Origin: Deuterostichococcus epilithicus
Taxonomy: Eukaryota; Chlorophyta; Trebouxiophyceae; Prasiolales; Stichococcaceae
Length of the DNA stretch: 64,000 nucleotides
Assembly: GCA_033439295.1 (NCBI GenBank)
Contig: JAVTLE010000005.1
Span: 2,468,501 to 2,532,500, forward strand
Direction: 5' to 3'
In this document: piece after piece, positions 6,101-47,864 of the stretch
Numbering within the stretch: the stretch's first letter is position 1
Layout of the letters: every line of letters starts with the position of its first letter
Program-made: the position numbers and the translations under genes
The notes under the pieces: generated by a model
The model's input: only the letters and a program-made list of their open reading frames with translations
Databases searched by the model: none
Told to the model about the DNA's origin: nothing

Positions 6101-8941
6101 GTCGAGGCGGTCGAGAAAGGTGCGGGCCTCCAGCGCCTTCATCCAGAGCTCTGGGCAGCTGCGTGCTGTCTCTGCATGCTGTCGCTGCCCAACGGTGAGA
6201 AGGCGAAGATTCGTTGACAGTTTCTTGCGGAGTCCAGGCTCGGTTTTGTTGAAGAACATTGCAAGCGGCAGCAAGCGCCAGATGCTGCCGTTGGACAAGC
6301 ACGCCAAGGAACGCGTTGTTGTTGCCGGGCCCATGGTGCGATTTTTCTTTGTTGATAAACAACGGCATCCTGCTGAAAGTCTGAGGACTGCTTATTCACG
6401 TCATTGCTTGGCATTGCTTCCTCCAACAAGCGTATCTGACGCGGATGGAGGTGGCTGATGTGCAGGCACACACCACAGAGTATTTGCTGGTAGGGAAGCT
6501 ACATTCGTCTGCAGGGTGGACTTCTGTCTGCAGGCTTCCTTGGGCAATGTTCTGATGGCACAGTGATCCACTGTGCTTCAGGGAAACTACTATGGGATAC
6601 CGGCTGGCAGCGTTATCACGCCTTTCACAGCCATCAAGGTGCGCGTCGCACGCCTGCCGCACCTGCGCCTTTCCGTCAAATTCCGCCAGATCTGGGGCCG
6701 CGCCCATCATGCTGCTTGTGCCCGAAATCGCATCTGCTGCACCGAGTCTGACGAAATCAGAGTCCTGCGCAGAACAAGGTAGACGGCGGCAGCGGCGGCA
6801 ACCTGGTCACGCACCACCCAGGGTCCCGCGTGTCCGGCTGGTTTGCCGGGGGCATCGACGAGACCATAGGTGCTGCTGCTGGCCTCGCCGGCTGCACCAT
6901 GCGAGTGCAGGCCCTCACCAGAATATCTCTGCAGGGGTGTCCTCACTCTTTGAGAGGCTGCATACAGTGGGTGACGATGTGCCATGCGAGGCGCGGCCGC
7001 AGCCTGGCTCGTGCTGTCTTGAGTGCATGACACAGTTGACATTCCTGGCAGGGACAGTGATGTCATATCCTGAATGGCAGGCTACTGTGGGGACGCCGAC
7101 GTATGCGTGCTGTGCCTCGGCACCAGCTCCATTGACGGCCACTCCGCTAACGACCCCCAGGGCCGCTACTCCATGTGGAGCCCCATCCAGGAGGTGCGTG
7201 CCGGCGTGCGGACTGCAGCAGCAGGCGCCGTGGGGCTGCTTTGCTGCGGCTGCGCTGTGATGACAGCTGACGCATCAAACAGGAAGTGCTGCTGTGTGTG
7301 CTACAGTAGGAAAGCGGGCTGCAATGAATCAACGATCCTTCATCTTTGTTTGTTCAGCCGCAGGGCGAGATGCTGGACCGCACCGACCTGCGGCTGCCGG
7401 GCGTGCAGGAGGACCTGGTCAAGGTCTGCTCCAGCGAGCCAAGTCTGTGTCAAACCAGTCTGTTTGCCAATGCTCCTGTCCGATGCACCGCAGCAGCACG
7501 CGTCAAGCAGTCGCAGCCATTTGCCCGGCATGAGGAAGCACCGCCTTCTGAGGTGACCCGCCATGAGAGGTTCACACGGGTGTGTGGATGCGCAGGGCGT
7601 GGCAAAATACACAGACGCGCACATCGTGGTCATCCTGATCCATGGCGGCCCGCTGGACATTTCGTGGTGCAGCCTCTTTTGCAGCGTAATAAAATTTCAA
7701 TATTTATTTCATTAAGAAGTTTTTCTCCGAGCGAATTGAGGCCCGAAGTACTTCCCTTTACTTTTCAGGCTGCAGCAGTCCGACCGCATTGGCGCCGTCC
7801 TGACCGCCTGGTACCCTGGCCAGGTGGGATGAGACTGTACATATATAAAACAAAATGAAGCCTTCAAGGCGCAGTGACTGCACAGCGAGCCTCTGGCCTG
7901 GGCCTGTGCTCAGCCTGTGCACCAGCTCGCCATGTGGCTTACTGAGGGAGTTGTTTGGCACTGACGCTGCCTGCTGGCCCTGCAGGGCGCGGCCGGCATC
8001 GCGAACCTGCTGTTTGGCGACGCCTCGTTCTCGGGGCGGCTGCCGGTGTCGTTCCCATTCAACAACTACACATCGCAGATCGCGATGTCCGACATGGACA
8101 TGTCGGACTGGCCTGGCCGCACCTATCGGTATGGCCACTATTGCATTGGGTCGAAGACCTCTTGCGGCAGACATGCATGGCGAGGTCTGCTTCATACCTA
8201 GCCATGCGCTGGGGCCTCATGTTGCGAGCCCTCAGGTCCATCCTCATCCACCCTGTCGTGCCGATGATGTGCAGATACCTCCGAGTGCCCGTGCTATACC
8301 CATTCGGGCATGGCCTATCGTACACAACGTTTCAGTACAGCCGATTGACCGCCGTTGCCGATGGGCGAGCGCCCATAGACGGCGCCCACGAGGTCGCTGT
8401 GCACGTCAAAAACACAGGCAGGCTCTTCGCGCTGGCCCGGTCTGCAGCGCATGATCCGCACACCAAATGCTGCTGAGATGAGAATTGCTCCGTCTGACCG
8501 AGCAGCCCTTGCCTCCTGTCGTGCTGAGCGCAGTGCTTCTTTGCAGGGAACGTCAGCTCTGACCATGTCGTCATGCTCTTTGTCCGACCCAGCAAATGTC
8601 CGGCAGCCGACAGACAGCCGGCGACACTGCCTCAAAAGTCCTTGAAACAGTACACAGTCCTTCACCTACGGCGCGGCCGGTCTGCGACAGTTAGGTTCAA
8701 CCTGTACCTGTCGGACCTGCAGCTGCACGGGATCGAAGGTGCGAGACCATGCTTCTGTTCCGGCAGACCGCTTGCTCAGCACCTGTAGCGGTGTTGCAAA
8801 TGCATCTGATGGTTTGTGGCTGACTTTGCATAGCGCTCACTCCTGCATGTGATCGTAGGTGCTGATGCTGCGTGTCAGTGGACGGCGGAGGTCGGAGGGC
8901 TTGAAGCAGTGTTGGAACTAAGAGCAACAGCAACATCTTGA
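3182..8941 (+). CDS. Secreted GH3 glycosidase, beta-xylosidase-like
   Basis: Twenty-two exons: 3182-3518, 4212-4327, 4417-4475, 4666-4713, 4815-4920, 5040-5131, 5249-5333, 5510-5643, 5755-5813, 5919-6119, 6238-6335, 6451-6489, 6582-6638, 6779-6869, 7081-7193, 7364-7423, 7596-7666, 7769-7823, 7986-8128, 8275-8417, 8547-8738, 8859-8941. They give 793 residues, normal for plant-type GH3. A hydrophobic signal peptide ([13 protein letters not shown]) sits near the N-terminus, so the enzyme is probably secreted or vacuolar; ATG 3203 is an equally good start. The barrel domain shows [18 protein letters not shown] and FVVSDCGAV, whose Asp (about residue 311) is the catalytic nucleophile position. The second domain shows [14 protein letters not shown] and WYPGQ; the C-terminal fibronectin-III-like domain shows [12 protein letters not shown] and VKNTGNVSSD. 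Substrate (xylan, arabinan or beta-glucan) cannot be fixed from sequence. Introns at 4328 and 8418 start with GC. Confidence 0.93.
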
Positions 8942-11212: not shown

Positions 11213-14944
<3,732 letters not shown>

Positions 14945-18012: not shown

Positions 18013-19091
<1,079 letters not shown>

Positions 19092-20324: not shown

Positions 20325-23300
20325 ATGGTGTGCCGCGAGCAGCTGGCGGCCGGCGCAAGGGTCGCCGGCATGGAGACCGTGCGAGCGTTTGGATCAGGTG
20401 CGAATGCCACACCACCTCGCAGCTCTGCCGCCGTGTGCCTCCATCTATTGTTTTGCTAGGAGCCCATGTGCATGTGCTGCTACAGCAAATGTGACTCCCT
20501 CATGCCGGCATAGCGCGGCAACATCCGGCGTTCATGGTCAGCACTGGACAGGCATCCCCGCCCACGATTGCAAGAGCTCACCGGGGGTGTGTGCCTGATA
20601 CAGGCTACTGGTTCGGGCCGCAGACGGGCAAGGAGGGCCCATGGGTGGCGCCGCTGTTCACCGCCGGGTTCCTCTTCTATCTGGCCATCCTTAACGTCCG
20701 CGCCGGAAAGTCGTCGCTGCTCCGGAGCCTCATCACAGCCTACATAGCGATCACTGGCATCGTCGAGGTGACAGCATCTTGTGGTTCGATGTCCGGACCT
20801 GAGCTATACTGCTGCATCGTCGTGCTGCCAGCTACGTCATGCTCACAGTGCCGCTGCTCACTGCAGCTCACCCGCTTCGTGTGGGACGTGAGCCGGTTTG
20901 CACTGGTTTGGGCGGCGCTGCACAACCTCGCAGAATGGGGCGTGATTGGCTTCACCGTCTTCAAGGCATGTTGTTTAATTCTCTTGATGGATCAGATGTG
21001 GTCGAACTGGCGCACTCCTGCTTGCATATGAGCGCTTGTGCGGCGGTCGGAGGCCGTCCAGGCCGCCACAAGGAAAGACAAGTTTAGGCGTGCTCTTAAA
21101 CCGCAGGCAGCGGAGGCGGACGCGCACTGGTGGCGCTCCCAGCTGTGGATCCTGCTTGTTTCCCAGGTGGGCCTTGTTGGTCGCTCCACATGATCAAGAA
21201 GTGATCAGCATACATTTGACAGTTTATCTGTGATTTGATGCCTTGTCAGCCCGAGTGAGGCTGGTGGGTTTGACACTGCCTCTCTCTTTGTTCCCAGTGG
21301 ATCCTGTTCGCACCCACGCTGACGGAGGGCGGCCTGGGCGAGCAGCTGGTCGGCCTCCTGTGCGATTGGCTGCTCATGATCGTGTGGGGCCGCCTGTACC
21401 TCAAGTCTGACCCCGCCAAAAGAAAATACATCCTCTTTGGCTTCCTTGCCTCGGTGAGCCAGTTTCTGAGCGTGGCTGAGCACACTCAAGGGGCTGATGT
21501 GCACACCCGGCTGCTGTCCAGACTGTTCCTCGGCATTGCATCATTATTATCTTATTCTTTTTCCTCACCGCCGGCTTGCGGAAAGTCGATGCTGGGCATT
21601 GCACGCCGCAGATTGGGCACATGCTGGAGATCCTTCCGCTTGTCTCTCTGCTCATCGGAGTCGTCAAGACGCCGTCAATCCCCGGTGAGCATATGCGCTG
21701 CAGGCACTGTTACTGTGCTGTCGCTGAGCTGCCCTGTCCTCGCGCAACCGACCGGAAACTCATATCTCAAGCCTGTGCGCCGTCCTACCCCAGTGAATCC
21801 ATCTGGCCGCAGGCTGCCTCCTCATTAGCTTCACCACGCCCATCACCTTCTATCTTTACCACCGGATGGTGGCCGGCTTTGATGCCTCCAATGACCCCGA
21901 CCTGGTCTCCTCCAGCGCCAAAGACGACCGCCCCGCGCAGGACCACTCCCTGCCCTGGCAGCAGGTCGCCAAGCTCATCGCCATCGCCTTCGGCCTCAGC
22001 TGCCTCACCCTGCTGGGCCCCGCCGCCGTCATCCCCACGTGCCCGACCTCAGGCATGGCGGTGCGTCGCTTGCGTGACGTTGCCCTCCTTTTCCGCATAT
22101 GCGATCTGAATGCAATAGTAGCGGTGTCGAGCAGTTTTGCCCCGCGTTTGCCAGCCAGGTATGATGATACGAATATACGATGACACAGTGATATGTCCGT
22201 TGCACGGTTCTGAGTCCCTCGCTCTGAAGACTGTATGTCTTGCGACATCACTCCAGGTGCCCCCTGGCGCCACGCTGCCGCACACTTCCCCCGCGCTGCC
22301 CGGCTTGCCGGCATTCACGGGCACCAGCAGTGGACTGCCCATCAGTGGCCAAGTTTCTCAAGCATCATACTCCCCTGGCGCTGCTCAGACCACCACAGGC
22401 AGGTCTTCGCCTGCCATAACTGCTGTCATCACGCCGCGGGTAGCCTGCACGCTTGACGTCGTGACGTGACATGCTTATGTGCTGGGCCTGCTTAATGCTG
22501 CTGGCAATCCATCACTACTCAACAAGCCAGATCTGCAACTGGCTTGCCACCGCCACAACCTGGTTGCGCTTGTGCCATGCAGGCAGCAACGAGTCGCTGT
22601 GCGCATCCAACACCAAACTCACGGGCACCACGACAGTCGTTGCCAAGCCCGGCCAGGGCATTGCCCTGCGCGACATGATCGCCACCATGCCAGGTGCGGC
22701 ACATGACTCTCAAGGGAAGTGCTGTGCAGGTGTCCCGAGGTCCGAAACGGGATTGCATCTGCCTCCGTGCGAGCCCTGCAGGAGCATTGGGTGGTGGATG
22801 AAGAACAGCTGAGTATCATATAGAGTCGGCGGCGGCCAGAAGCAAGCCAGCAGGCTGCAGGCGGAGTGACAAAACAAAGTACTTCCCTGCAGGCCCCATC
22901 CGCCAGGAGTACGGTAACCTCTATTATGAGGAGGCGTACGGCGGTGCCGATGGGCTGACTGTCAAGTTCTTCGAGTCCTGGTCCAGCATCCGCTCCCTGT
23001 ACAAGCACATCTACATGTCGCCCACCGTGCGGCGCGTGTTCTTCTCGGAGGCCTTCCGCAACATCGTGGCAAACCAGGTCCTGGAGGGACCCTTCCAGGT
23101 GATTGAATTCACTGCCGCAAGCCCTGCGTCTCTGACATGGCAACTGCATGTAGCCCATATCCACGGCAGTGTGGCAGCACCGACACCTTACTGCCGTTCT
23201 ACAGCCGCTCGCATGATGACTTGCGCTGTGGGCTGCGCCCCAGGCCTGCGCTGTCGCAGGCTTTGCTTTCCAGAGGGATTTTTGCCCGACCAGCCTGCTC

Positions 23301-24243
23301 CTGGCCGAGCTGCAGTTAGTTCATATGTCGTCCCGCAGGCGATGGTGCCGTGCTCGGAAGCGGAGAAGGAGTCGCAGCCGGTCACCATTCCCTTCTCCAC
23401 TGTCATCGACGCACCCGTGGAGTGCCTGTGGGCCAAGATCGACGCCTGGTCTACAGACTACTCCTGGGTCGAGGACTCACAGGTACCAACGCCCTGATCG
23501 AATGCTGGCATCGCAGCACGGTTAAGCTCCTTTCACACATGCTGTCTGAGCCGCCTGCCGCACCACTGTGATGGCGATTCGTCATGCGCGCGCGCAGGGC
23601 GTGACCGCGGTGACGCCGACGCTGCGCATCCTGCACTTCAAGTCTACCGACGTGCCGGTCATCCGGCAGACCGCCCCGCTGGCGGAGCCGGAGCAGCCCG
23701 CCGGCGGGCACCGCCTCATTTACTACATGCTCGGCGGTGAGTCCCCACATTGAAGCGTGCCTGTGGCTCTCGCAGTGGCTCACGTGACAGACACACATTC
23801 GCTTTGCTGGACAGCAGCGTCAGGGGCAGCATATAGGAGTTTCAAGGCTGCCGACACGAGGCTGCTCCGCTCCGTCTGTGCATCCCTTAAGTTTGTGCAG
23901 CAGGGAATTGCAGCGCCAAAGCGCCGCTGAATCGTCTGGCAAAGTCGGCCACCATCCTCTGCTCTTGATGAAGGATGCCCCGGAACATGCAGGTGCATTC
24001 ATGGACACGATCGGGGAGGTGTACAAGGGCGATCTGGCCATCATACCCTCCGCCACCGACCCGTCCAAAACGCTGCTCACCTACTCGTCCACCATCGTCG
24101 CGAAGGACCCTTCCTTCACCAAAGCGTACTATGACAGCGTGTACGACGACTTCACCCAGAATCGGATTCCGTTCCTGCAGCGCTGGGGCCGCGATGCGGG
24201 CGCCGCCTGCCACGCAGCCGCGCAGCAGCGCGCCACTTCGTGA
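20325..24243 (+). CDS. Multi-pass membrane protein with SRPBCC domain, copy 1
   Basis: Thirteen exons: 20325-20397, 20604-20767, 20867-20965, 21107-21166, 21298-21453, 21612-21684, 21813-22060, 22257-22398, 22583-22693, 22893-23098, 23339-23482, 23598-23736, 23993-24243 (TGA); 621 residues. The N-terminal half has about seven or eight hydrophobic helices, e.g. WVAPLFTAGFLFYLAILNV, ALVWAALHNLAEWGVIGF and FGFLASIGHMLEILPLVSLL. A Pro/Gly/Ser/Thr linker follows, then a conserved block (EEAYGGADGLTVKFFESW), then a soluble domain starting PVTIPFSTVIDAPVECLWAK and ending with a long helix (YDDFTQNRIPFLQRWGRD), the SRPBCC/polyketide-cyclase/START-like pattern that usually makes a hydrophobic ligand cavity. 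I do not recognise the membrane half or the full architecture. Ligand sensing or lipid handling is inference. An upstream coding exon is possible (see 19092-20324). GC donors at 20966 and 22399. Confidence 0.85.
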
Positions 24244-27049
24244 TCAGACTCAGTGCCGCGGGAAGTGGTCTTTGATGGCGCAGAGTTCCTTATGCGCACA
24301 CTGCAGAAGCTTAAGATTCGGTTTTGTGCCTTCGATGTATTGACATACATGTTTGATTTTTGTGGGAAAGTCGTGTTGGGTCGACTGGGATGTTGTGATT
24401 GCGCATCTGTATTCCAGATGACTTTGTGTGCACTTGAGTATTGAGTAGATTTACTTGAGCATCGCAACGGATGAAGACGCCGGGTTGAGGATTGTTGCAT
24501 TTTGAGAATCGCAATGAACAGCGCTACCGGTACATGCAGCGTGGTTTGATGCCGCTGCCTTCGCGGCGATGCATGCGATGGATGGTGCAGTGTGGTACGT
24601 GACATGCCAGAGCCTCAACAGCAGCATGCCAACGCGACGATACAAAACGATCTACCTTACAGTGGCGGCGGCAGCTTGAAGCCGCAGTTGGCGGGCATTG
24701 TGCAGCAAACTCGTCTGCCACAGCTCAGGCGTCAGATTTCTGATGCGCCTATGACTTACGGTCGTTCGTACAATCCTCACATTGGCGCGTGCACCTCCTC
24801 ATTCCGTCCAAAATATCGCAATTTTTCAGCCTCCGTCAAGTTGCATGCCGCGGCGCATATGGCAGCACATGTTGCATGCAGCAGAGCCAGTGGCAAGACC
24901 TGATGCCTGAACAGTCTGGGTCATCTCTTGCATCAGAATCAGCTATGTGAAGGCCTTCGTCACCTCTGATCTGTATCAGAAGTGGCCAGCACTCTTTCTG
25001 AAAGGCGTCTGCACCAGTGTAGGACTAATATTGCACCCACTGCTGCCATAGCGATGATGAATGATTAAGAACAGGGCGCCCAGCGGCGGTTTTGCGTGTG
25101 GTTGCATCAGGTGACCACGTTGGAAATATGCTCCATCACAGCAGCACTGCATCAACCTGCTGCTCTCCTTTTGTCTTCTTTTCTTTCCACAACACATCCC
25201 AGGTTCAGCGAAGCATGAGCAGTTTGGGGGAACAGCAATGAAGCTGAAATAGCGAGTGCGTTGGCAAGCGGCGAAGTGTTGTAGGTGATGAAGTCGACCC
25301 TCTAGGCCGTGGGTCCAAGAAGCTGGGTCCTCGCTGTGCGCGCAAGAGCTGGTATGCAGACCACTGACCATGAGCTTAAGCTATGTTATTTGTCGTCCAG
25401 TGCAACGGTGCTCAGCGCGCGGGGCGGCGGGACGACATCTTTGACCGGGAGTGCCGCTTCTACCCCGAGGCGAGTGGCAGGCCGGGCCAGCTCTTGGCCT
25501 AGCCCGCCGCCTCTGCGGCAAAGCTGTGTCTGTGGCCCCTTGATCATTGTGGGGTGGAGGGGCCCCGAGCCCACTGCCACGCACAAGGAAGGGGCAAGCC
25601 CCTGTACCCCCAGCGGACCGCACAGCCCGCAGAAGCGTGCGCCACAAGGGCACAAACGTCCAGTCCGTAATGCCCAATGCGAATCAAAGCCAGAACAAGA
25701 GCGCGTAAAATCACACCGCATGCAATGAAACCACGCCAGCCGCTGGGCGCCCGCCGATCGGAGGCCTGCCACAGCAGGCTGCTGAAACTGATAAAGGGCC
25801 CCTGGACGGCGGCTGAACCCCGCTACCGATCTGGGGCCACTCCCACCGCACAGAATTCCGACAGGACACTGAAGGATCGCGCTACGCCGCCCATTGCACC
25901 TGCAGAGCCAGCCGCAGCCCCGGCCGCGCAGCCTGCAGGTGTGCATGCTAGCTGCTGCCCATCCAGGATGCGGCGGGCCGAAAGCCTAATCGCCCATAGT
26001 CTATGGCGGACAGGGTTGCCCGGCACATCACGCAGGCGCCAGGAACTCCGCTCCGCCGCCACCGCTGACTACGCATGAGCCAGTCGTCCACCGTCCGCAT
26101 GCGCCGCCCCTGCTTGCGGCCGCTGCTAGCTGGTGCTGCTCCTTCCCATGCAGCGATGTCTGAGGTGATGTGCACATGATCATCACAAACACCCTCTTGT
26201 GGCGCTCGTACGGGAGAGAAGCTGCTTGCCACGTGGCACATGCTGTCACGAGAGCAGTGCCAGGTGCGATAAGATCCGGTCATGCCCGGAGTCGGGCATT
26301 TCCTTTGTTTAGTGTACACGTCCGCACACAGAGAGACTCTGAGGCTCATCGTGTCGAAGGGGGAAGACCGCGCAGACGGAGCCGCGTGCCGGAGTGCTGC
26401 CGGCGCCACCTCCTGAGAGTGTCAGGTGCCATCTGCGCTGATCTGCCCGCCAGATCCGCAGCAATGAAATGTTTTTAGGTTTGAATGTGAACAGTCCTGC
26501 GGATGCGCTCTGCAATGCGAACTACTCTGTCGATGCATCACGAAGTATCTAACGGCGTCCACTACGGGCGACAGTAGACCAGACCAGGTCAATGAGCACC
26601 TATCCGCAGGTCTAGAGGCATCTGTTGGTGCATCTGGGGCCTGCTCCGTGGGCAGACTATTCGCGCGGGCGGATCAACATCCGGGTTGTTCAGTTCTATC
26701 TGAGCAGCTTTTGTCTTCGCAATACTGGCGCCTGCATCGAGATGCAAGCTTCAGAATCTGCACGGATCAACTCATACTCTGCACGGATCGCCGGTTGGCT
26801 GGTCAGATTCATGTTGGCGGCCTGCAGTACCGTCTCTTGCCAGCTGGGGATCGAACCTTTTACAGGCTGCATCGTCCCGGGCAAATGTCTGGTACCAGAA
26901 CCGGGAGCAGCTGCAGAGGTCTGCATATGCAGACTCGTGCGCCGTCAGGCTGGAATGCTGGGTTCGATTTGATTTGGCCATGATCTGCTGTCCAACTTTC
27001 TAACCCCATTCACTCTCATGCCGCAGGCGCGCCTGCCATCCCAGCCACC
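24244..27049. other. 2.8-kb spacer between the tandem genes
   Basis: No gene was convincingly assembled. A stretch at 25395-25502 (+) follows an acceptor-like CAG and ends in TAG; it reads like an exon (RRDDIFDRECRFYPEASG) but I found no partners. Low-conviction frames occur at 24592-24903 (+) and 25386-25946 (-). Near 26955 an ATGCTGG before GT could be a short first exon for copy 2, joining in phase to 27027. Confidence 0.4.
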
Positions 27050-30000
27050 ATGGTGTGCCGCGAGCCGCCCGTTTCGGGCGCACGGACCTTTGGAATGGAA
27101 ACGATACGGGCTTTCGGGTCGGGTAGGCGCATCTGACGCTCACATGCAATCTTCATTCAGCAGACCCAAAAGTGGCTGGTGCCGGCGCGCACATAAAAGT
27201 TTTTTCTTTCGAGACTGTCTGGAACAGGAAAGTGCAGCTTAGAACTAAATCGCCGGGCATACATTCCCCACAGGCTATTGGTTTGGTCCCCAGACCGGCA
27301 GGGAGGGCCCATGGGTGGCGCCGCTGTTCACCGCCGGCGTCCTGTTCTACCTTGGTGAGCGTGCTGCAGCATGTGTTACGAGTCTCCGTTTTTCGCAGCT
27401 GTGGGACTTTAGACTCCGCCACTTCTGGCCAACACAGTCGATCATGTTGCGATGCAGCCATCCTCACTCATCGGGCTCGTAAGGCCGACTCAAGGGCACC
27501 GCTGCTGCGCAACTTGATCATCGCCTACATCACCATCACAGGCATCGTCGAGGTAAGCAGCCACAGTGGGACCCATCCTGGTGTGCATCTGCAGCATCTG
27601 GCACAGGCTGTGACGGCGTTCGCATGGGTGCATGAAGCTAACACGGTGTCTGCACATGTGCAGCTCACGCGCTTCGTCTGGGACGTGAGCCGCTTTGGTG
27701 AGGGTGTTCTCCATCCGGCTCTGCGCATCGTACAGCAGTTGATGCTCATTCCTGGCTAAGCAATCAGCTGTCAGTCTTACGCTCACCAAGAGCTTGTGCT
27801 TTTGTGCAGCGCTGGTCTGGGCGGCGCTGCACAACCTTGCTGAGTGGGGCGTCATTGGCTTCGCAGTCTTCCAGGCGCGCTCAGCATGCTGATGCTTTCG
27901 CTTGCTCATCTCACCCGTGCTGTCACATGGACGGCCTACTCCGTAGCTCTAAATTAAAGCACCTTGATTGATGCTCTAGCGTTGTGATGCAGACCACGGA
28001 GGCGGACCGCCACTGGTGGCGCTCCCAGCTGTGGATTTTGCTGGTTAGTCAGTGGGTGCTCTTTGCTCCCACTCTGTTCGAGAGCGGCCTGGGAGAGCAG
28101 ATCGTTGGATTACTGTGTGACTGGCTGCTGCTGTTCGTGTGGGGCCGCCTATACTTCACAGTCGACCCCGTCAAGAAGAAATACATCCTCTTTGGCTTCA
28201 TCGCCTCGGTGAGCAATTGTGTTGCGGTGCAGTGCGTCTTCTGGCCTGCGCTGTGTCTTGCAGGATGCATGCTGCAGCGATGCATTGAAACCCAAGTGAC
28301 TCAGCTCCCATGGTCAATCCTGTCTGAAGACCAACCACATGATTATTGCATGACAGATCGGCCACATGCTGGAGATCCTCCCGCTCGTCGCCCTCCTGAT
28401 TGGCCTGGTCCCCGCACCCTCGACACCAGGTAGCTGTCCTTGCGACTAAACGATGGCTTGCCGCGCATCGTCTGTGCTGCATGGCGCCAGCTGTCTGTCT
28501 GCATCCTCATCACGCAGCATGCTTGTGGCTGCGGACGCATCCAGCAACCCCCTTGCTGATCCATGCTGACGACGCCCGGCATTGCAGGCCTGTGCACCAG
28601 CGTCCTGCCAAGGAACAGCCAGAGTCGACCAGCTGTGCCACGCTGATGCCGCGTCGCCGTCATGTGGCGCCACCCTGTGCTTCCTTTACGACTCTCGGAA
28701 CTTTGCGCGCAGGCTGCATCCTGATCAGCTTCACCACGCCCATCACCTTTTGGTTCTACTCCCGTATGGTGGACGGCTTCGACGCCTCCGGGGATGACGA
28801 TCTGGTCTCCTCCAAGGCGGTGAACGGTCGCGCCGCCCAGAACCACGCCCTGCCCCTGAAGCAGGTCGCCAAGCTGGTCGCCATCGCTCTCGTGTGTGCC
28901 GCCGCCACCATCCTCGGCCCTGCCAAGCTCATCCCCGTCTGCCCTCCTAAGGACATGAAGGTGCGTCAGGCCTGCTGCGGTTCAGCAAGGTTGCCCGACC
29001 AGTCCGCTCATCCTCCTCCCTCGCCCGGCCCCCACCGGGCGCATGGAGCGTGGCAAACCCTCGCTTTGCTCTTCACACACGTTCGTTGCCTGCACGCCTC
29101 AGCAAGTGCCTGCAGCCGACCGGTGAGCCATCTCCGCGAGAGCGCACCGCATTCACACGTTGGCGACAGCAGGGGGCACACATGCTTGTGCTCCTGCAGG
29201 TGCCCCCCGGCGCTGTGCTGGCACACGATCTGCCCGCCACACCTGGGATGTCCCTCTACACCGGCACCAGCAGCGGGCTGCCAGTTAGCGGCAAGGTTCC
29301 TCAGACGTACATCGCCGCCGCAGGCAGTGCCGCCGGCGCATTTGCCACCGCAGGCATGTCATGCGCATGAATGCAAACTGGCAAGCACTTGGAAGCGCAC
29401 GCCTGTCTACTTCAGGCAGTATACTCTGCCCGTCCCTTGCACACCCTTGCTGTCTGAAACACCTTCTCTGAATGCCCTTTGTCAGGCAGCAACGAGTCCC
29501 TGTGCGCTTCCAACACCAAGCTGACGGGCACCACCACCGTTGTTGCCAAGCCTGGCCAGGGCGTTGCCTTGCGCGACATGATCGCCACCATGCCAGGTGC
29601 GCTGCTACAGCTGCGCAGTCAAAAGAGCGATGCGGTGTGGTATTGTGCCCTGCTTGTGCACCTCTGCAAACTCCACCTCAGGAGCACGCTGTCATCATCG
29701 CCCTTGTCAAATTATGCATGGACATCGTTCACGCGGCGGCACCTTATTCCAGGCGCAGTGAGAACCCCCAGCACGAGGCATGCAGCGCAATGCCTGCCAG
29801 ATGTTCGTTCACTGAACTGGTCACATAGGACCTCCATCACTATGCCGCCACGTAGGCCCCATCCGCCAGGAGGACGGCAACCTGTATTACGAGGAGGCAT
29901 ATGGCGGCGCCGATGGCCTGACCGTCAAGTTTTTCGAGTCATGGTCCAGCATCCGCTCCCTGTACAAGCACATTTACATGTCGCCCACTGTGCGGCGCGT

Positions 30001-31237
30001 GTTCTTCTCGGAGGCCTTCCGCAACCTTGTGGCCAACCAGGTCCTGGAGGGCCCATTCCAGGTGGGAAAGGCTACAGTTTTTCATTGCACTGGATTTTGC
30101 CCACATGCAGGCTGTGCGGGACAGCAAGCGGCATTGTTGAATTTGCACTGCGAGCACGAACAGCTCTGTTCAAGTCATCTGCGAACCGGCAATCCCTGCG
30201 GGTGCAAGCTTGCCGTGCTGCAGCTGCCGATGCAGTGCCCCGTAGGCAATCGTGCCGTCTCACCGCCGGCCTGGTGTCCCCCCGCAGGCGATGGTGCCGT
30301 GCTCGGAAGCGGAGAAGGAGGCGCAGCCGGTCACCATCCCCTTCTCCACCATCATTGACGCGCCAGTGGAGTGCCTCTGGGCGAAGATCGACGCCTGGTC
30401 CACGGACTACTCCTGGGTGCAGCACGCTCAGGTGCGCCGTTGGACCCAGCCACGGATTTGTTGACCGTCAGGTCGGACCGTCAGGTTGGACCCCATCAGC
30501 AGCACACATCCGAGTGGAATTTTTGCAGCACATGTAGTGCTGGGTGCTGGGAGTCCTTGCTGATGCTGATCGGCGTTGAGCGTGTGCAGGGCATCACGCC
30601 AGTGACGCCAACGCTGCGCATCCTTCACTTCAAGACCACCGATGTCCCCGTCATCCGGCAGACCGCCCCACTTCCAGAGCCCGAGCAGCCTGCCGGCGGC
30701 CATCGCCTCATCTACTACATGCTCGGTGGTGAGCGATATTGCTGGCTCATGGCAATTCTGCTGTTCTGGCCAGCTTCGCACGCAGTCCGACAGTTGCGCG
30801 TGAGCTGTACGTGGGAGCTGGAACTCAAGGCTGCAACTGCACTGGAGACCTCAGCGAGATCTGTGTGCACAGTCTTCAGGATGCCCTCTGGGACACCACC
30901 CTCAACAACGCTGCGCATGCCTTGCTCAGCAGCCCCACGCGCCCTGCTGACGTTGCCGTGCCTGCGCCCCACTGCAGGCGGTTTCCTGGACACCATCGGC
31001 GAAGTGTACCGCGGCGACCTCCGCATCAGGCCCTCCGCTGGCGACCCGTCAAAGACACTGTTCGAGTACTCTGCGACCATCGTGGCGAAGGACCCGTCGC
31101 TGACGACCGCATACTTCAATTCCGTGTTCAACGACTTCACGCAGAACAGGGTGCCCTTCCTCCAGAGCTGGGGCCGCGACGTCGGCGGCGGGGCCGCATG
31201 CAAGGCCACGCCTCCCCCCAAGGTGGCCACCCAATGA
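27050..31237 (+). CDS. Multi-pass membrane protein with SRPBCC domain, copy 2
   Basis: Fourteen exons: 27050-27122, 27274-27354, 27458-27552, 27664-27697, 27810-27874, 27993-28208, 28357-28429, 28713-28960, 29200-29353, 29486-29596, 29856-30061, 30288-30431, 30590-30728, 30978-31237 (TGA); 632 residues. It is a tandem paralogue of the gene at 20325, same strand and domain order: short N-terminus (MVCREPPVSGARTFGMETI), about seven or eight membrane helices, PGST-rich linker, then SRPBCC/START-like domain. The exon 29856-30061 matches its counterpart at 67 of 69 residues, so the paralogues are recent or strongly constrained. Two introns (27355-27457, 27698-27809) are absent from copy 1, and one copy-1 intron is absent here. 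GC donors at 27875 and 29354 match copy-1 positions. Function is unknown. Confidence 0.85.
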
Positions 31238-34651: not shown

Positions 34652-35986
34652 ATGTTGGACCTAGGCGCAGAGGCTGCCAAGGCAGTGACGACTCTGGAGC
34701 AGCTGACGAATGCGCCTCCGAGCGACGGAGGCAAGGAAGGATCTCACAACCTAGTGAGCACGCTTGAGTTGAACGGCAACGAGATCTCGGCAGCATCAGG
34801 TGATTCGCATGCAGCGCAGTAAGTCAGCACGCGCCAGCACTGCTATCCAGCAGCTTTTGGCCGATGCTAAATTGTGCAACCATCTGGGTGGTCTTCTGAC
34901 AGGTGTCGCCTTTTGCTTCTCGCGCAAGGCCGGCCTCGGCCTATCGGTACGCCCGCATGGTGCCATGCTACACTGCCCAGATACCTTTGTTGACATGCCT
35001 GTCTGGCCAAGCAAAATCTGCACCACAGCTGACACACAGACTCGTGAGCTCAGGCCTCGTACGGCACCGGATTCCTGCTCGCCAAGGTCAATGACAAGCC
35101 CGGATGGAGTGCCCCGCTCCCCTTCTCAGTCACCACCGGCGGCCTTGGATTCACGATCGGCTACAGCGAGGTATGCGCTCCTGGGTGCATGGCAGCTGAA
35201 CATTGCCTACCATCGTCCGCTTGGCTGTAGTGCGTTGCAGCCGTTTCACTGCATCGCAGAGACACACCTGACAAGCAATGCTGTCCATATATAGCCGTCA
35301 CACTATGGTCTGCCGCTGGTACAGGTGGACACTCTGGTGATCCTAGACTCGCCAGAAGCGGTGCAGGAGTTTCTCAAGACGCAGGCAAGTCTGCTGATGC
35401 ACCCTGCCATCATATTCCAACTGCTCTCCGGTTCGTGCTGCACCAGATGCTTCAAATCTGATTTCCCCCTCTGCCATCCCTGGACCCTGACAACTGGACT
35501 AAGCTGAGGTCAGTCCGGATGCGACAATCCCCTTATGTGCAACAGGTCAGCCTTGACAGCCACCTGAACCTCAGCGCTGGAAAGTATTCTGCGGACGCAT
35601 CAGAAACGGCACTGGACGTGCGGCACCCCGGCAACTCCTGGAAGCGCTTCTCCTACTCCGTGTCTCAGGGCTTGATGCTCGACGCCAGTTGGAACGGTGC
35701 GTGAGCACGACCGTCCGCTGTGCAGCTCTCAGGCCTGTTGGTGATGAAGTCAATATGCATCAGAGTCTCCCAGTCGATTTTGGTGCAGTGAAGCAAAGCA
35801 ACGACCCAATGCGTTGCAGGGGCGGGCATCTCGGTCAAGGACGAGGACCTGCACCAGCTGTATGGCCCGGACGTCACGCGGGAGGACGTCCTCTCTAGCA
35901 AGGTGGAGCCGCCGCAGGCCTTCGGGCCGCTGTACGCGTCGCTGAACCGCCTGTCGTTCTTCGCCGACAACGCGGCGGCGCCCTGA
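34652..35986 (+). CDS. SYLF-domain (Ysc84-like) lipid-binding protein
   Basis: Six exons: 34652-34799, 34903-34946, 35054-35170, 35325-35384, 35546-35696, 35820-35986 (TGA); 228 residues, the usual size of a single SYLF domain. Diagnostic stretches are GVAFCFSRKAGLGLSASYG, GFLLAKVNDKPGWSAP, GGLGFTIGYSEVDTLVIL, DSPEAVQEF, VSLDSHLNLSAGK, FSYSVSQGLMLDASWNGAG and LHQLYGPDVTREDVL. SYLF domains bind phosphoinositides and act in membrane and actin-related trafficking in yeast and animals; plant versions are poorly studied. No signal or membrane segment is present. The intron after 35384 begins GCAAGT, a canonical GC donor. The start ATG 34652 precedes a short helix-rich N-terminus. Confidence 0.92.
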
Positions 35987-40073: not shown

Positions 40074-43000
40074 ATGATGCTCGCATCACGATGTGTGCCG
40101 GCTGCTGCCAGCGTGCCACAGTCCCTTAAGGCGCCAAAATCGGCCATGCAGCCAGTTGGGCAGTCCCGCAGCCTGGCGCAGGGCCGTGTCGCTCGCCGTG
40201 CGACGCCCGCCAGGCTCGTCCTGGCCACTGCCGCCCCACAGGTGAGGACTGTGCGCTGGCTGACCAATTTCAATGTGCTGGCATGTCATCGATGGTTGAT
40301 ACAGGGTATTCATCCTTGCGGCAATAATCCCTGCGGCGCGCCTTGCACCTTTAAAGTGGAGACTTTAGCAGTGGAAAGGGGGTCATGCCAGTGTCAGGCG
40401 TTCCCGGGCACTGTCGATTCAGGGCACTGCGTGAGATGGTGTCACATTGCCGCGGTAGGTCGCTGCGCGCCCCAAGTCGGAGGCGCAGACCGCCAGCCTG
40501 CAGCTGGACGCGGCCATTGCGGAGTTTGCGGGCATCCCGGAACCGCAGGAGCGCCTGAAGCTGCTGCTGGAGTATGCCAAGCGGCTGGAGCCGCTGCCTG
40601 CGGGCGCCAAGACGGACGCCAACCGCGTCATGGGCTGCACTGCGCAGGTGGGACACGCCTTCTTGCTGCAGCCATGCCCATATCCCGGTTGTAACTTGGG
40701 TGGGTGTGGACGTTGCGTGGTCTTTCGCGTTGCATTGGTGTCCTGACCGGGTCAAAGGCTGGGCATCGAAGCAGTGCGGCATATCACAACAGAACTTGTT
40801 CGCATATGAATTGCACCCTTCTAGGTAGGGTCACCTTCTATATAGGGTCAGCAGGTTGCACTGCTTTGTTCTCTGCATTCTGGTCGACTTGTGGTCGACT
40901 TGTGCTCAATCTCTCTCAGCTGGATGCAGGCATGGATTGAGGCGCGTCTGGACGCTGACGGGTGTGTGCAGCTGGCGGCTGACAGCGACTCCGCGCTGAC
41001 GCGCGGTCTTGCCGCGATATTGGTGCACTCGCTGTCTGGCCTCATGCCGCAGGAGGTGCTCGCTGTGGATCCCGCCGCTCTTGCTGGCCTGGTGAGCAAC
41101 TCAGCTGCTGCTGCATCAGATTCGACTCGTCGCTTGTGGACATCTGCTGGCTGACCACCCGAGGTCTCAGAGAGCGTTGAGAGACTCTGCAGAGGCTTAG
41201 GGAGGCTTTCACATCCGGGGCGTGCATTTGTGTAGAGCATGGTTTGCGCCAGTAACTTGTTGAAGTCTTGGGCACGGCACAGCACATCAGGCCGCGACCA
41301 GTGCTGAGTGGGTCGACCGCGTGCGTCCAGGGGCTGGGGCCGTCGGTGCTGACGCCGTCGCGCGCCAACGGCTTTGCCAACATGCTGGAGGCGGTGCGCC
41401 GGCGCACGCGCATGCTCACCTCGGACCTGCCCACCTTCCCCTCCCTGCTGATCGACGCCGACGGCTACACCGCCCAGGTATGTGTCGGACAGACATGCGG
41501 AGTCTCTCTCTTGGTGTGGAGCAGTGTGTCAACAGCATTTTCAGGATGTATCCGTCGTTTTGCGCTCTCGTTTTGCGCTCATAGGATTGCGGGTGTGTGC
41601 ATGCAGACCTGTTCCGCACTGGCGAGGCAAGAGCCCTATTGGGATGGCGGCCCGTTGGTCCAGCGTCTGCTGAGACACCTGTGAAAGGCAACCCTGTAAG
41701 CTGTCATGCTGCAATTGCGTCGTGGATTGACGGTTCCTGCCTGCGTCCCTGCAGGGCGACTTTGCACGTGCCCAGGCAGAGTACCTGCAGCCAGACGCAG
41801 GGCAGGTGGACGCTTTGGTGAAGGTGCTGTCGACCAAGAAGATCGGCATCGTGGCCCATTTCTACATGGACCCGCAGGTACTAACTAGTCGAGCATCAAG
41901 CGGGTTGGGTTTACCATCTTGGCTGCAATTCGCCTGCTGCTGCTGCTGCTGCGGGGTCTGTGCAAGGGTCTCCTCAAGTCGCAAACCCTGGACAGCTGCG
42001 GCCACAGCACGACCTGGGCTTTGCAGTAGGGATGCAGCAGCCAGCCTGAGGCAGCGTCGTCAGGGAAGGTGTCCAAAGGACAGTCTTGATTTCATCGGCC
42101 CTCTGCGTCGCAACACAGGTACAGGGTGTGCTGTCGTCTGCGGCGGAGCGCTGGCCGCACATTCACATCTCCGACTCGCTGGTCATGGCGGATCGCGCGG
42201 TGGCGATGGCGGAGGCGGGCTGCAACGCCGTCGCGGTGCTGGGCGTCGACTTCATGTCTGAGAACGTGCGCGCCATCCTGGACGAGGCAGGCCACCGCGA
42301 AGTGCAGGTGGGCCGAGGTTTCCTTGCAGGTATGTCCTGGTTGGTCGCTGTGCGCATCAGCAGCTGCTCAGGAGCGGCTCAACCCAGAGGCTTTGGTGCC
42401 CACTGCGCTCGGATACTGACCCCGGTGCCGCATGCTGCGCTGTCACAGGTGTACCGCATGGCAGCCGAGGACATCGGCTGCTCGCTGGCGGAGGCGGCGG
42501 AGGCGAAGCCCTACGAGTCGTACCTGTCACAGGCGCAGGCCACGCCCCGCTCCCTGCACGTGGTGCGTGCCGCAGGCGCTTGTTCCGACCCCATCATCAT
42601 GCCGACCGGGACTCATTGAGTGGGGACCAACAGACGCCGCTCACCCGTGGATGGGGAGCCTGTGGCGTCTGAACACCGCATGTCTCACCGTGCCTGCAGT
42701 GTGCTCTCTGGTGCAGACGGCGCTGGACCCTGGTGGCCTCATGGCAGGCAGCTGTCTGACACAAACATAGTGCCGCAGGTGTACATCAACACATCGCTGC
42801 GGACCAAGGCGCACGCGCACCAGGCGGTGCCCACCATCACCTGCACTTCCTCCAATGTTGTGCAGACCGTGCTGCAGGCCTTCGCCCAGGTTCGCTCAGG
42901 CTCCATCCACTGGAGCTCTTGGAAGTTGTCAGGCGCATGTGTCATCGATGCTTGCGAGTTCTTGGTGTGCTTTCTATGTTCTGCATCCTGCATGAGCGCC

Positions 43001-45232
43001 CTACAGCGGCTGGTTCGGTTGTTCTGCTGCAGCCTGCAGTTGCATTCGCCAACTGCTAGCTCCACGTGCACTCACCTGACGTGCCGCCGCCGCTGCTTTT
43101 CCGCCAGGTGCCGGACATCTCGGTGTGGTACGGGCCAGACACATACATGGGCCAGAACCTGGCGGCGCTGTTCACCTCCCTGGCGCAGCTGCCTGATGAG
43201 GACGTCCGCGCCATCCACCCCGGTGCGTGCCTGCTCCCTCTCATGCTGCTGTGTTTCATGACAGGGCGGTGTGACCCAGCAACTGCTGCGGAGCTGCTAC
43301 CAGCAAACGAGCGCCTGGCAGGCGGCTTGCCGCCCACCCTCGCACACTGCCTTGGCATTGTGTGCCACCACGGCGAACGATGCTTTCGCCGTGTGTGCTT
43401 CAATCTCGTACGCTGCGCGTCAAGTGCAGAGGCGTGCGCATGTTTTCATCCTGCCCTGCTTTCCTGACTCCTGCGCGCGCCTTGTCCGTGCAGCCCACAC
43501 CCAGGCTTCGGTGCGCGCGCTGCTGCCGCGGCTGCACTACTTCCAGGAGGGGACCTGCATCGTGCACCACATCTTTGGCGGCCGCGTCACCGAGCTGGTC
43601 GCCGCTGCCTACTCGGACGCCTACCTGACCGCGCACTTCGAGGTGCCCCCTGCCCCATCCTCGTCCTGGCGCTTTGTGTGTGTCTTTGAAGACAGCCTTG
43701 AAGGCTCTCAAGACAGCCTCCAAGGCTTCGCAGACAGCCTCGAAAGCTCTTGCCTCATTCGAGCCTTAGACACGGTTGACCAAGAGTACGCAAGGCCGGA
43801 AGGAGCATCGTTCTGGTAGCCCCACTGCTGCCCGATGCCTGCAGGTGCCGGGTGAGATGTTCGAGCTGGCGATGGCGGCTCGGCGGGAGCGCGGCATGGG
43901 CGTTGTGGGCTCCACGCAAAATATCCTGGACTTTATCTCCGCCAAGCTGTCTGCCGCTCTGGAGCAGCCCTTTGGCGACAAGTGCGCGGCTCGCTTTGGG
44001 ACACGTCCCTGGTTTGAGTTCGACTGTGAGAGTCCGGAATGCTCTGTCATCGTGTCTGCGCAGGTCTATCTGCGCAGGTCTGCCCTTTTGTGCAACGCAG
44101 CTCATCGTCACCACAGCTGCTCCCGTCCTGCCCTCAGACTGAGCTGCACTCACAGCGTCCAAAGCTCTGCCGCAGTCACAGCAGAAGACTTCTCCTTGGA
44201 GCGCTATTCATGTGCTGTTGCGAATCGCCCTTCTGTTTTCTGCGTGCAGGCTGCAGTTCGTGCTTGGCACAGAGTCGGGCATGATTACCTCCATCGTGCG
44301 CAAGGTGCAGTCGCTGATTGGCGCCTCCGGCCGCCGGGACGTGACCGTCGAGATCGTGTTCCCTGTGTCAGGCGACGCCATCACCACCTCCGGGCAGGCA
44401 TCCGCCGATGGATCCGCCCCGACGCTGCCTGGCGGCCTGTCTGTCGTCCCCGGCGCCGCCAAGGGTGAGGCTTTGCCCAGCGCAAGGCTTTGCCCAGCGC
44501 ACACCGACATGGACTGAGACGCCTGCCGTGTCTTCAATGAGGGCGCACACCAGTTTCGGAGCCGGTGCTCTCCCGGCCCCTGTGGCAATTCAATCTCAGC
44601 AGGCTGGCACCCTCTGCATGGCGATGTCTTCTCCTTCCTGTCCTTTCACTTTGCATGAGCATTGCGACGTGCTTGTGCGTGCAGTCTCTGGCTCCTTCTG
44701 CAGTCATCTGACTGCACCTCGCCCTGCTCCCCACAACAGGCGAGGGCTGCTCCTCGGAGGGCGGCTGCGCGTCGTGCCCGTACATGAAGATGAACAGCCT
44801 GGACGCGCTGCGCGGCGTGTGCAACAAGGTGGGCTCGCCCGCCGGCGAGGCGCTGCTGACGGCCTTCCAGCCGCGCGCCTACAGTGAGACCGTCGGCGGC
44901 CGCACCATGGCACAGGTGCCGCCGCTTCAGACCCCCTCCTGTGCAACATGCCTACCTCCTTGGACCCTCGAGCTGTGAGCTCAGTCGGTTGCCGGCTGCT
45001 TGGCTGGCTGTGCAGAGGGCGTCAATGCTGGGGCGGGGCAGCTGCAGGCGCATCAACGTTGGGCGAGGTGCCGTCTTGGGCTGGGCGATACTTCCTGATT
45101 GCACACAGGTATACTTATGTGCTGATTGACATGCAGGCGGGCTGCGAGCCGATCCTGCACATGCGGCACTTCCAGAAGGCGGGCGCGCTGTCCGACCAGC
45201 TGGTGGAAGACATTGTCACCCGCAACACCTAG
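40074..45232 (+). CDS. QS: Plastid quinolinate synthase, SufE-NadA fusion
   Basis: Fourteen exons: 40074-40241, 40459-40647, 40930-41091, 41331-41477, 41755-41877, 42119-42307, 42449-42562, 42779-42889, 43108-43222, 43494-43642, 43845-43981, 44250-44464, 44740-44915, 45137-45232 (TAG); 696 residues. A Ser/Arg-rich transit peptide comes first. The SufE domain (LDAAIAEFAGIPEPQERLKL) carries its reactive cysteine in MGCTAQ and stimulates cysteine desulfurase. The NadA part condenses iminoaspartate with dihydroxyacetone phosphate to quinolinate, the first committed NAD precursor: IGIVAHFYMDPQ, HISDSLVMADRAV, VLGVDFMSENVRAIL, TCTSSNVVQ, WYGPDTYMGQNLA, LGTESGM and CSSEGGCASCPYMKMNSL with conserved cysteines for a 4Fe-4S cluster. 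This fusion is the plant-type enzyme. Start: second ATG 40077 is equally possible. Confidence 0.96.
43690..43752. repeat. Degenerate 21-bp tandem repeat, three copies
   Basis: Units begin at 43690, 43711 and 43732, each starting AGACAGCCT, inside an intron of the quinolinate synthase gene. Confidence 0.75.
44468..44501. repeat. 17-bp tandem repeat, two exact copies
   Basis: Units 44468-44484 and 44485-44501 are identical and lie just inside the intron following the quinolinate synthase exon that ends at 44464. Confidence 0.85.
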
Positions 45233-45583: not shown

Positions 45584-47864
45584 TCAGTATATCAGTGGCA
45601 CGATGCGATATTTCACCAGCGCAGTGTACCTGTCCCAGTCCTTGCCATATTTTAGCTGACAAGCGTGGCCGTCCCGCAGGTCCCGGTGCACTGCGGGGTG
45701 GAATATGCTCAGGTCGATGCCTCGAATTTCAAGTGCTGGCAGAGTACAAGCCTTCCTGCAAAGCGCCGCAGTGCAGCATGAACAGCGGTGATCACCTAGT
45801 AGTATGCCAAAGTAGATGACGTAAAAGTAGGGGATGACGCTCTGGAAGCCGCACGGCAGGCACCATGCCCATCTGCAATTGCACATTTCTTGACGGAGTC
45901 AATGTCACGCCGCTGCAATATGAAGTTCTCAACGTCTTTTCCCCCCGGGGTCTGGTCATCATGCTTGCTGCATGTCAAGCGCCGGATGGTCGTGTGCCTT
46001 GCATGAACAACTGCGGCAGAGGTACTCACGCCATGAGCCAGTCGCCAAAGTAGTTGATGTGGCGCGCGACGCCCCACCAGCCCGACGCCAGCAGCTGGCG
46101 CCCCCGCGCCGTCTTGATGGTCTTCAGGCCGGCCACCCTGGGGTGGTCCGGGTCCCGCCGGAACAGGTCCTTCTGCGAGTTGCTGCCGCGGAAGGTGAGG
46201 TACCCCGCCGCCTTGAGCGCCAAAATGCCCGCAATGGCCACCCAGGACAGCACCTGCGGAAGCACCAGTACAGGGTATAGGGCCGCTAGCAATGCAGAGT
46301 AGCCCCCCCACATGCAGTGGCCGAATCTGTCTGTTTATGAGACTGCAGGACATTGCCGCAAGGAATCAGGTGCCGTGCTGACCCGCCGTCCGGGAGCAGC
46401 ATGCGGCTCTGCGGGACTGCGCTGCCGGCACTGCTCGGCAAGGTCTACGATGCACCAAGCCGGAGAGCCTTCCCGGTCAAGCCTGCTGCAAGCCTGCCCG
46501 ACTCTGGATGCTGCAACGTGCAGAGCCTTCTCACCCACCTGATGGTCACATACAGAGGTCATGAAAGGTATCTGAGGGACCTTGGCGAAATCTCACCTGC
46601 GGGTGGTCTGCCAGGTACCGCGCCTGCAGCGTGTATATGAAGGGCACCCAGGTTAGGTCGCCGAAGACCAGCATGAAGCCGAAGCCGTCGGAGGTTATGT
46701 CCATGGTGGTCAGGATGGCGGGCTCGAACCACAGCGCGTCCACCACATACAGCAGCTGGAAGCCGACCACCAGCGCCATGGACACGCTGACGCTGCCCGT
46801 GGCCAAGTGCTGCGCCTGCAGCATGCCCAGGTTGAGCACGGCCCAGCCTGCGCGGCAGCAGGGACGGCGGTGCGCCTGAGTCGCCTGTCGAGATAGGGGA
46901 GCGCGGGGGGCTGGTGCGCCAGCACGTCGACACAGACTGGCCTTTGACGGCAGGGCCCGGTTGACAAAGCACCGCAACCGCAGACGACTGCAGCGACGGG
47001 TCGCCATATGAGGCAGCACCATCTGTAGTCTGCGATTCAAGGCGAGGCAGCCATGTGGGGATTGCATGCGAAAGCTCTCACCTATGAGGCCCGGGTACAG
47101 CTCACAGAACTCCTTCAGGTCGAAGGAGCCGATCCTCGGGTTCAGCTCCCGGCCCATGAAGAACTCATAGATGGGGTAGCTCCGGTCGCCTAGGCCGCCC
47201 CTGGGTCCGCCGCAGCAGGCGGCCAGCCGCTTGCGGCCGGAGAAAGACGACGCATACAGCGCCGCCGACAGTGCAAAGCTGAACACGGTGGACGCCGTGA
47301 GGAGTGGCACAAAGTTGGCGTGCGCCCAGGCCAGCTTGTCCGTGGTCGCGCCCAGCACCGCGGCGCAGGCCAGCGTCACGAGCAGGGTCTGTAAGCCTGC
47401 GTGCCAGCAGCCTCGGTTCGTTCACATTTTGTGGATACGCGCATGCTGCAATGCGGGGTCAGCGATGAGGCTTTAAAGCAGCAAGGACACCAGCTGACAT
47501 TAGGGTTGCGGGCCGCAGGTCTCTCGTGTAAAGTGCTGCCACAGGCCCCACCATTGAGTTTGTAGGTGAGCTGGGACCCGTCCGCCAGTTGGGTGCCCTG
47601 CCGCCGCTGCCCCGGCAGAAGCAGGTGCAGGCCGGCCTGGAAGGTCAACCAGCCAAGGTACACCCACGTCGCCTCCCAGGTGAAGAACCGAGTGCCGCTC
47701 GGCCAGCCGGGGACTTGCAGTGACGGCCGCAGCGCCACGCAGCCATCGGCGTTGCACGCCCATACCAGGCTGTAGCACACGATCGGCAGCCCGATCATGA
47801 TTGCAGTCGGGCCAAGGCGCGGCCCCCAGAATTCAAAGTGCCGCTCGGCCTTTGCGGGCGCCAT
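45584..47864 (-). CDS. ERG24: Delta(14)-sterol reductase
   Basis: Six minus-strand exons: 47864-47552, 47396-47082, 46847-46597, 46253-46030, 45872-45796, 45690-45584 (TGA); 428 residues, normal for the ERG4/ERG24 family. It is a multi-pass ER membrane enzyme that reduces the C14-C15 double bond with NADPH after CYP51 demethylation in sterol synthesis. Key signatures are HLLLPGQRRQGTQLADGSQL, EFFMGRELNPRIGSFDLKEF, the signature GWWGVARHINYFGDWLMAWA, CLPCGFQSVIPYFYVIYFG and the C-terminal KYGKDWDRYTALVKYRIVP. The AWAWCLPCGF context favours delta-14 over delta-7 (DHCR7) reductase, but that assignment needs a tree. Start: ATG 47864 begins MAPAKAERHFEFWGP; an in-frame ATG at 47912 would add 16 residues. 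Confidence 0.92.

Follow-up and report, generated by a model that had tools for sequence, protein, structure and literature searches.

What might two neighbouring algal genes do, if their predicted products set a pair of soluble domains behind a bundle of membrane helices? This question is raised by a 64,000-nucleotide stretch of DNA from the green alga Deuterostichococcus epilithicus (contig JAVTLE010000005.1, positions 2,468,501 to 2,532,500; hereafter the window, to which all coordinates refer), where two paralogous genes, A and B, lie in tandem on the plus strand. Our analysis indicates that each protein runs from an eight-helix membrane part through a flexible linker to an ABM domain and, finally, a START-like (SRPBCC) domain. 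An earlier reading of the bare letters—the original prediction—had given the order as membrane part, linker and SRPBCC domain; that order stands, with the correction that an ABM domain between the linker and the SRPBCC domain had been overlooked, making two soluble domains rather than one.

Gene structure of the tandem pair

Gene A (20325..24243, plus strand) comprises 13 exons encoding 621 residues, and gene B (27050..31237, plus strand) 14 exons encoding 632 residues; in both, the spliced frame is open from ATG to stop, and the tandem pair lies where it had originally been placed. The exons of gene A are found at 20325-20397, 20604-20767, 20867-20965, 21107-21166, 21298-21453, 21612-21684, 21813-22060, 22257-22398, 22583-22693, 22893-23098, 23339-23482, 23598-23736 and 23993-24243, and those of gene B at 27050-27122, 27274-27354, 27458-27552, 27664-27697, 27810-27874, 27993-28208, 28357-28429, 28713-28960, 29200-29353, 29486-29596, 29856-30061, 30288-30431, 30590-30728 and 30978-31237 (all plus strand). 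Splice sites were set by hand from the agreement of paralogue exons, comparing the halves of the region, and the models thus derive from DNA alone. All 25 introns are of the GT-AG or GC-AG type, and we hold the gene structure of both copies with high confidence.

Eleven intron positions are common to both copies (12 introns in A, 13 in B). An intron at residue 132 is present in A only and introns at residues 51 and 90 (A numbering) in B only, indicating gain or loss of introns after the duplication. The GC-AG introns (20966-21106 and 22399-22582 in A; 27875-27992 and 29354-29485 in B) occupy homologous positions in the two copies. Separately, intron 4 of gene A contains short stretches (21180-21287) whose DNA matches two other contigs at 81%—perhaps a dispersed repeat.

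An ABM domain behind the linker

The ABM-like domain covers residues 346-452 of A (exons 9-11; 22603..23362, plus strand) and 354-460 of B (exons 10-12; 29506..30311, plus strand); each chain showed a single ABM unit. In both copies the assignment draws on a profile built from the two sequences, complemented by PDB entries 1y0h, 1x7v and 2bbe and by sub-threshold Pfam ABM matches. A PDB search with the C-terminal half of B returned 1x7v (E 0.04), 1y0h (E 0.17), 3p51 (E 0.65) and one unrelated kinase, while the profile of both copies gave five matches at E <= 10, namely 1y0h (0.023), 1x7v (0.025), 2bbe (1.6) and two unrelated entries. We take 1x7v (PA3566), 1y0h (Rv0793) and 2bbe (SO0527) to be ABM-type proteins. 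Profile-profile comparison with 88 bacterial ABM sequences yielded 97.3% and a score of 60.4, against a best of 16.2 among 100 shuffles. Eight of these 88 sequences had been drawn by our own profile, and the result stands without them, the other 80 giving 96.4% (a value obtained without a shuffle control). A cross-control of the ABM piece against the SRPBCC sets described below stayed at or under 2%. The alignment is co-linear over 72 residues and retains P-x-R-x-E-x-G, a Y and E-x-W-x8-H.

Structure prediction for the ABM exon pair with AlphaFold2 reached a mean pLDDT of 67.6 (best of five models) and showed two full strands, a short strand and three helices in the expected order. Foldseek with this fragment model listed 196 matches at E <= 10, none of them at 0.001 (best E 0.66), and no ABM name stood among the 50 rows shown. 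Taken together, these comparisons at the sequence level assign ABM homology with high confidence.

A C-terminal SRPBCC-like domain

The SRPBCC-like domain follows at residues 453-606 of A (23363..24195, plus strand) and 461-616 of B (30312..31186, plus strand), both recognised with the profile of both copies and PDB entry 3p51. With this SRPBCC profile, 3p51 was the sole PDB match at E <= 10 (E 0.046); the match consists of two co-linear stretches, the better of which alone has an i-E of 2.4. The same subfamily was also reached among bacterial genomes through locus L156, a Polyketide_cyc2 protein by Pfam, whose PDB relatives include 3p51 (found independently of it) and, more distantly, PYR1 and other PYL proteins. 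Profile-profile comparison with 28 sequences around L156 gave 80.1% and a score of 36.3 (best of 200 shuffles, 21.9), and removal of the nearest members left 71.5% and 35.8%, in each case above 100 of 100 shuffles; this set was seeded by a match of our own profile, a choice for which shuffles do not correct. The general Polyketide_cyc2 set (27 sequences) gave 9.2% and a score of 21.9, with 19.4 as the best of 100 shuffles. Left out of these sets were three of 30 Polyketide_cyc2 loci (L134, L144 and L145) and two of 30 L156 relatives with an internal stop (L179 and L184). A fold prediction across the final two exons of B, with the intron between them read through, produced an unusable model (pLDDT 34.4).

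The SRPBCC homology of the C-terminal domain is supported with moderate confidence. The original call of such a domain was right but is weaker than that of the ABM domain, with 36-80% against the nearest subfamily and 9% against the general set. As an observation of its own, bacterial relatives of L156 occur as adjoining tandem pairs in 8 of 32 matched genomes (G035, G054, G074, G130, G142, G178, G219 and G236), examples being L174-L179, G074:C10 98806-99673 and G142:C33 493444-494316.

The membrane half and the linker

The membrane half spans residues 1-286 of A (20325..22045, plus strand), with eight transmembrane segments predicted by hydropathy, and residues 1-290 of B (27050..28945, plus strand), with seven or eight depending on the scale—the very range given in the original prediction. 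On the octanol scale, A shows eight hydrophobic segments, every one within residues 38-281, and B repeats these eight (37-288) and has a further, marginal segment at 593-611 in the C-terminal domain; the Kyte-Doolittle scale yields eight for A, seven for B. When Asp, Glu and His are treated as neutral on the octanol scale, extra segments turn up within the soluble half and the eighth helix of B is no longer predicted. Since shuffled versions of the whole protein also yield about ten segments on the octanol scale, the case for a membrane part is made by the clustering of segments and by the match between two diverged copies rather than by the segment count. On this basis, a predicted helix bundle is supported. 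Several polar residues within the hydrophobic segments are conserved between A and B (H98, E102, D155, H187 and E190, A numbering). With loop limits drawn by hand, loops 1, 3, 5 and 7 hold 12 Lys/Arg residues against 6 in the remaining loops of A, and 14 against 8 in B.

No known family could be attached to this half. The membrane half of B alone had no match in Pfam (E <= 10) or NCBIfam (E <= 5); in full-length scans, that of A drew DUF3040 (E 0.084), a PHROG (E 0.22) and, at E 1.8, an ECF transporter, far under the cut-offs where these are given; and the PDB returned two antibodies (E 0.15 and 0.17). Two further ideas, a sterol-isomerase-like (EXPERA) bundle suggested by an H-x3-E motif and a microbial rhodopsin, found no Pfam support and were dropped. 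The membrane family may be new.

The linker, residues 287-345 of A (22046..22602, plus strand) and 291-353 of B (28946..29505, plus strand), is rich in Pro, Ser, Thr and Gly, with Ala also abundant in A, and matches the low-complexity linker described originally.

Divergence of the two copies

The A and B proteins are 79% identical. Nonsynonymous over synonymous divergence (dN/dS, NG86) amounts to 0.144/0.781, or about 0.2, for the whole protein, and by part to 0.167/0.824 (membrane half), 0.347/0.965 (linker), 0.012/0.396 (ABM domain; about 0.03, the lowest) and 0.107/0.872 (SRPBCC domain), the linker being the fastest-evolving long part (dN 0.35). Purifying selection seems to act on both copies, and the duplication is not recent. 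The low value in the ABM domain would follow if the copies must remain dimer-compatible.

One exon is nearly invariant: exon 10 of A (22893..23098, plus strand) and exon 11 of B (29856-30061) share 67 of 69 residues. The original prediction had counted these correctly, yet the exon belongs to the core of the ABM domain and not to the SRPBCC domain. Its explanation, constraint, is supported: the identity exceeds chance, and the strongest constraint (dN/dS about 0.03) falls on the ABM domain. Part of the identity reflects lower synonymous divergence there. Four-fold sites differ at 17 of 59 positions in the ABM domain and at 102 of 226 elsewhere (Fisher p = 0.026), which suggests that gene conversion or silent-site constraint adds to the 67/69 identity. 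Synonymous divergence across the ABM domain (22603-23362 and 29506-30311) is about half its value elsewhere, perhaps the trace of gene conversion. No third copy was seen when the whole genome (46.8 Mb, 21 contigs) was searched with B: all 26 listed protein matches (E <= 1) belong to these two genes, only the best candidates being scored.

Searches for relatives

No credible full-length family match emerged from Pfam and PHROGs, searched with the full length, or from NCBIfam, searched with three pieces of B. Three pattern scans of viral contigs confirmed no relatives (two of them shared the same pair of patterns and are not independent of each other), and a pattern scan of prokaryote contigs gave 77 matches, none confirmed as relatives. 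Moreover, the profile of both copies found no full-length relative in 796 bacterial genomes (398 + 199 + 199), where few candidates per genome were scored. There were 26 weak matches in these genomes (accepted up to E 0.05 for the first and second sets and up to E 0.01 for the third), 11 of which fell on the ABM stretch (4 of 11, 4 of 11 and 3 of 4 per set). All eight of these ABM-stretch loci that were read look like ABM proteins, three with Pfam confirmation; among the other 15 matches, L156 is a true SRPBCC protein and five more that were read look unrelated. The architecture was likewise not found in open-licence PMC literature, searched by title or abstract start.

Seen against the original prediction, the full length has no credible library match and no prediction, made on exon fragments, contradicts the folds. 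The profile comparison it had proposed for each half succeeded for the soluble domains (96-97% for ABM, 36-80% for SRPBCC), whereas the membrane half matched nothing credible in library searches.

A tentative function, and the genes nearby

What, then, might these proteins do? Our preferred but tentative answer is that A and B could be membrane-anchored, ABM-dimerised enzymes or carriers that handle a hydrophobic ligand, probably an aromatic or isoprenoid compound resembling a quinone or pigment. Its uptake or presentation would fall to the membrane bundle, and the SRPBCC cavity would hold it. The ABM domain would dimerise the protein—as A-A, B-B or A-B—into a two-unit barrel as in its class, and may also have a catalytic role, in oxygenation or ring formation. 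According to the excerpted text of PMC4835899, such barrels can form when two chains dimerise, or else through duplication and fusion; with a single ABM unit recognised in each chain, dimerisation would be expected. The proposal is supported by the ABM and SRPBCC homologies, by the cooperation of ABM proteins and cyclases in bacteria and by the polar residues conserved within predicted membrane segments. Our confidence in the function is low, and dimerisation, ligand, catalysis, transport direction and compartment are points that we only infer.

Several results weigh against this proposal. Full-length B scored 16.0 bits (E 0.014) against the Pfam ABM model (PF03992), missing the gathering cut-off of 23.1, full-length A had no Pfam ABM match at all, and the excised ABM pieces stayed below the cut-off too (15.4 bits, E 0.022, for B; 12.9 bits, E 0.13, for A). 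A phage tail sheath model matched full-length B in Pfam with an E equal to that of ABM (0.014) and was treated as chance. Polyketide_cyc2 (PF10604) likewise gave no Pfam match with either full-length protein or either C-terminal piece, and when the whole genome was scanned with Pfam for ABM, Polyketide_cyc2 and Polyketide_cyc, A and B gave no signal, perhaps because the domains are divergent and split by introns. No catalytic residue can be named in A or B. The Lys/Arg bias is a weak hint at an outer or lumenal location of both soluble domains, which would be unusual for such domain types, and the low ABM divergence could in part stem from gene conversion. Finally, no polyketide synthase (PKS) or pathway gene was recognised by Pfam among 20 of the 64 coding-like stretches outside A and B, the rest having been read by eye.

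Ten of these 20 neighbouring stretches had a Pfam match, and they look like general metabolism, kinase, ribosomal and TPR genes: ERG4/ERG24 sterol reductase, transketolase, ribosomal protein L37ae and a protein kinase, with sub-threshold matches to TPR, Ysc84, the GH3 C-terminal domain and CIA30. Those matched as single exon-like stretches lie at 46032-47870 on the minus strand and at 48961-49371, 18148-18264, 12072-12287, 390-614, 35825-35983, 7971-8159 and 59311-59406 on the plus strand. In addition, exons at 41346-45229 (plus strand) resemble quinolinate synthase by eye, two stretches there being without a Pfam match.

Comparison with known systems

Known proteins that share parts of this architecture suggest other functions. 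The first is that of a membrane receptor, in which the SRPBCC domain would sense a small hydrophobic ligand in the manner of plant PYR/PYL proteins and the ABM domain would serve for dimerisation only. The nearest bacterial SRPBCC subfamily tested also matches PYR/PYL (phmmer of L156 against PYR1, E 5e-6; PYR1 against the L156 subfamily, 96.5% by profile-profile comparison), although PYR1 alone gave 0.3% against the A/B domain, a comparison of one sequence with two that has low power. The gate SGLPA and latch HRL of PYR/PYL are missing at the aligned places, where A reads ST-DV (gate) and TIG (latch); an HRL string does occur, in the strand preceding the latch place. Nor did A or B show an output domain, for instance a kinase, and we consider a receptor unlikely. 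A more elaborate version is improbable as a whole: A and B as a new eight-helix family in which the ABM dimer couples paired SRPBCC pockets across two paralogue chains, forming an algal receptor for a lipid or hormone that shares its bacterial SRPBCC origin with the plant abscisic acid receptors.

STARD3 offers a second model, its plan being MENTAL (four membrane helices) followed by START, with no ABM domain known. Here a START-like domain held in place by the helices would carry lipid across to a neighbouring membrane or tether the two. The broad plan of membrane part, linker and C-terminal START-like domain is common to both, yet A and B have no MENTAL match in Pfam, the ABM domain would be left without a role and the weak topology signal puts the soluble domains outside. 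Lipid transfer of this kind is, in our estimation, unlikely.

Closer in domain content are the bacterial fusions described in excerpts of PMC6689052, where ABM proteins and cyclases cooperate, and occur fused, in aromatic polyketide pathways; the roles proposed there for ABM are those of a monooxygenase or of a helper tuning cyclisation. Like BenH (cyclase first) and proteins of the SchA/CurD/WhiE protein 1 type (ABM first), A and B carry an ABM and a cyclase domain in one chain, and their order is the ABM-first order of SchA/CurD. In contrast, the excerpts mention no membrane half, BenH has the reverse order and the fusions belong to bacterial biosynthetic clusters. That A and B are themselves membrane-anchored aromatic polyketide cyclases or aromatases of bacterial type, with an ABM partner domain, is improbable, considering that no PKS gene was recognised in the 20 of 64 stretches scanned and that the Polyketide_cyc and Polyketide_cyc2 cut-offs were not reached.

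A green-algal precedent exists in LFO1 of Chlamydomonas, which excerpts of PMC5557675 describe as an ABM protein and IsdG heme oxygenase of about 18 kDa that has a predicted transit peptide and degrades heme; in excerpts of other algal papers (PMC8320531 and PMC5139114), an ABM protein is mentioned solely as a listed or expressed gene. The LFO1 triad (N41, W100, H110), mapped by residue spacing rather than by alignment to LFO1, falls on T355, H414 and V424 of A if W405 corresponds to LFO1 W91, and on A346, W405 and I415 if it corresponds to W100. A membrane-bound heme or tetrapyrrole oxygenase of IsdG type is thus very improbable, as the Asn-Trp-His triad fails in both registers and A and B carry W-x8-H instead of W-x8-W—the former present in 86 and the latter in none of the 88 bacterial ABM sequences, a set seeded by one protein.

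Each soluble domain can also be set beside its closest known kind. With the ABM proteins of PF03992 (1x7v, 1y0h and 2bbe), A and B share the motifs P-x-R-x-E-x-G, Y and E-x-W-x8-H; they differ in the loss of the second conserved His, in seven extra residues before the last helix and in lying within a membrane protein. Like 3p51-like Polyketide_cyc2 proteins, their C-terminal domains open with I-D-A-P-V-E-x-x-W and follow the same strand pattern as far as the last helix; they differ in longer loops round the middle strands and in scoring below the Pfam cut-offs. Both soluble domains are familiar, as are bacterial ABM-cyclase pairs, but our searches turned up none that follows a set of several membrane helices. 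Should the domains be coupled to that bundle, A and B would represent a novel mode of dealing with a greasy metabolite at the membrane and an entry point to the origin of SRPBCC ligand receptors.

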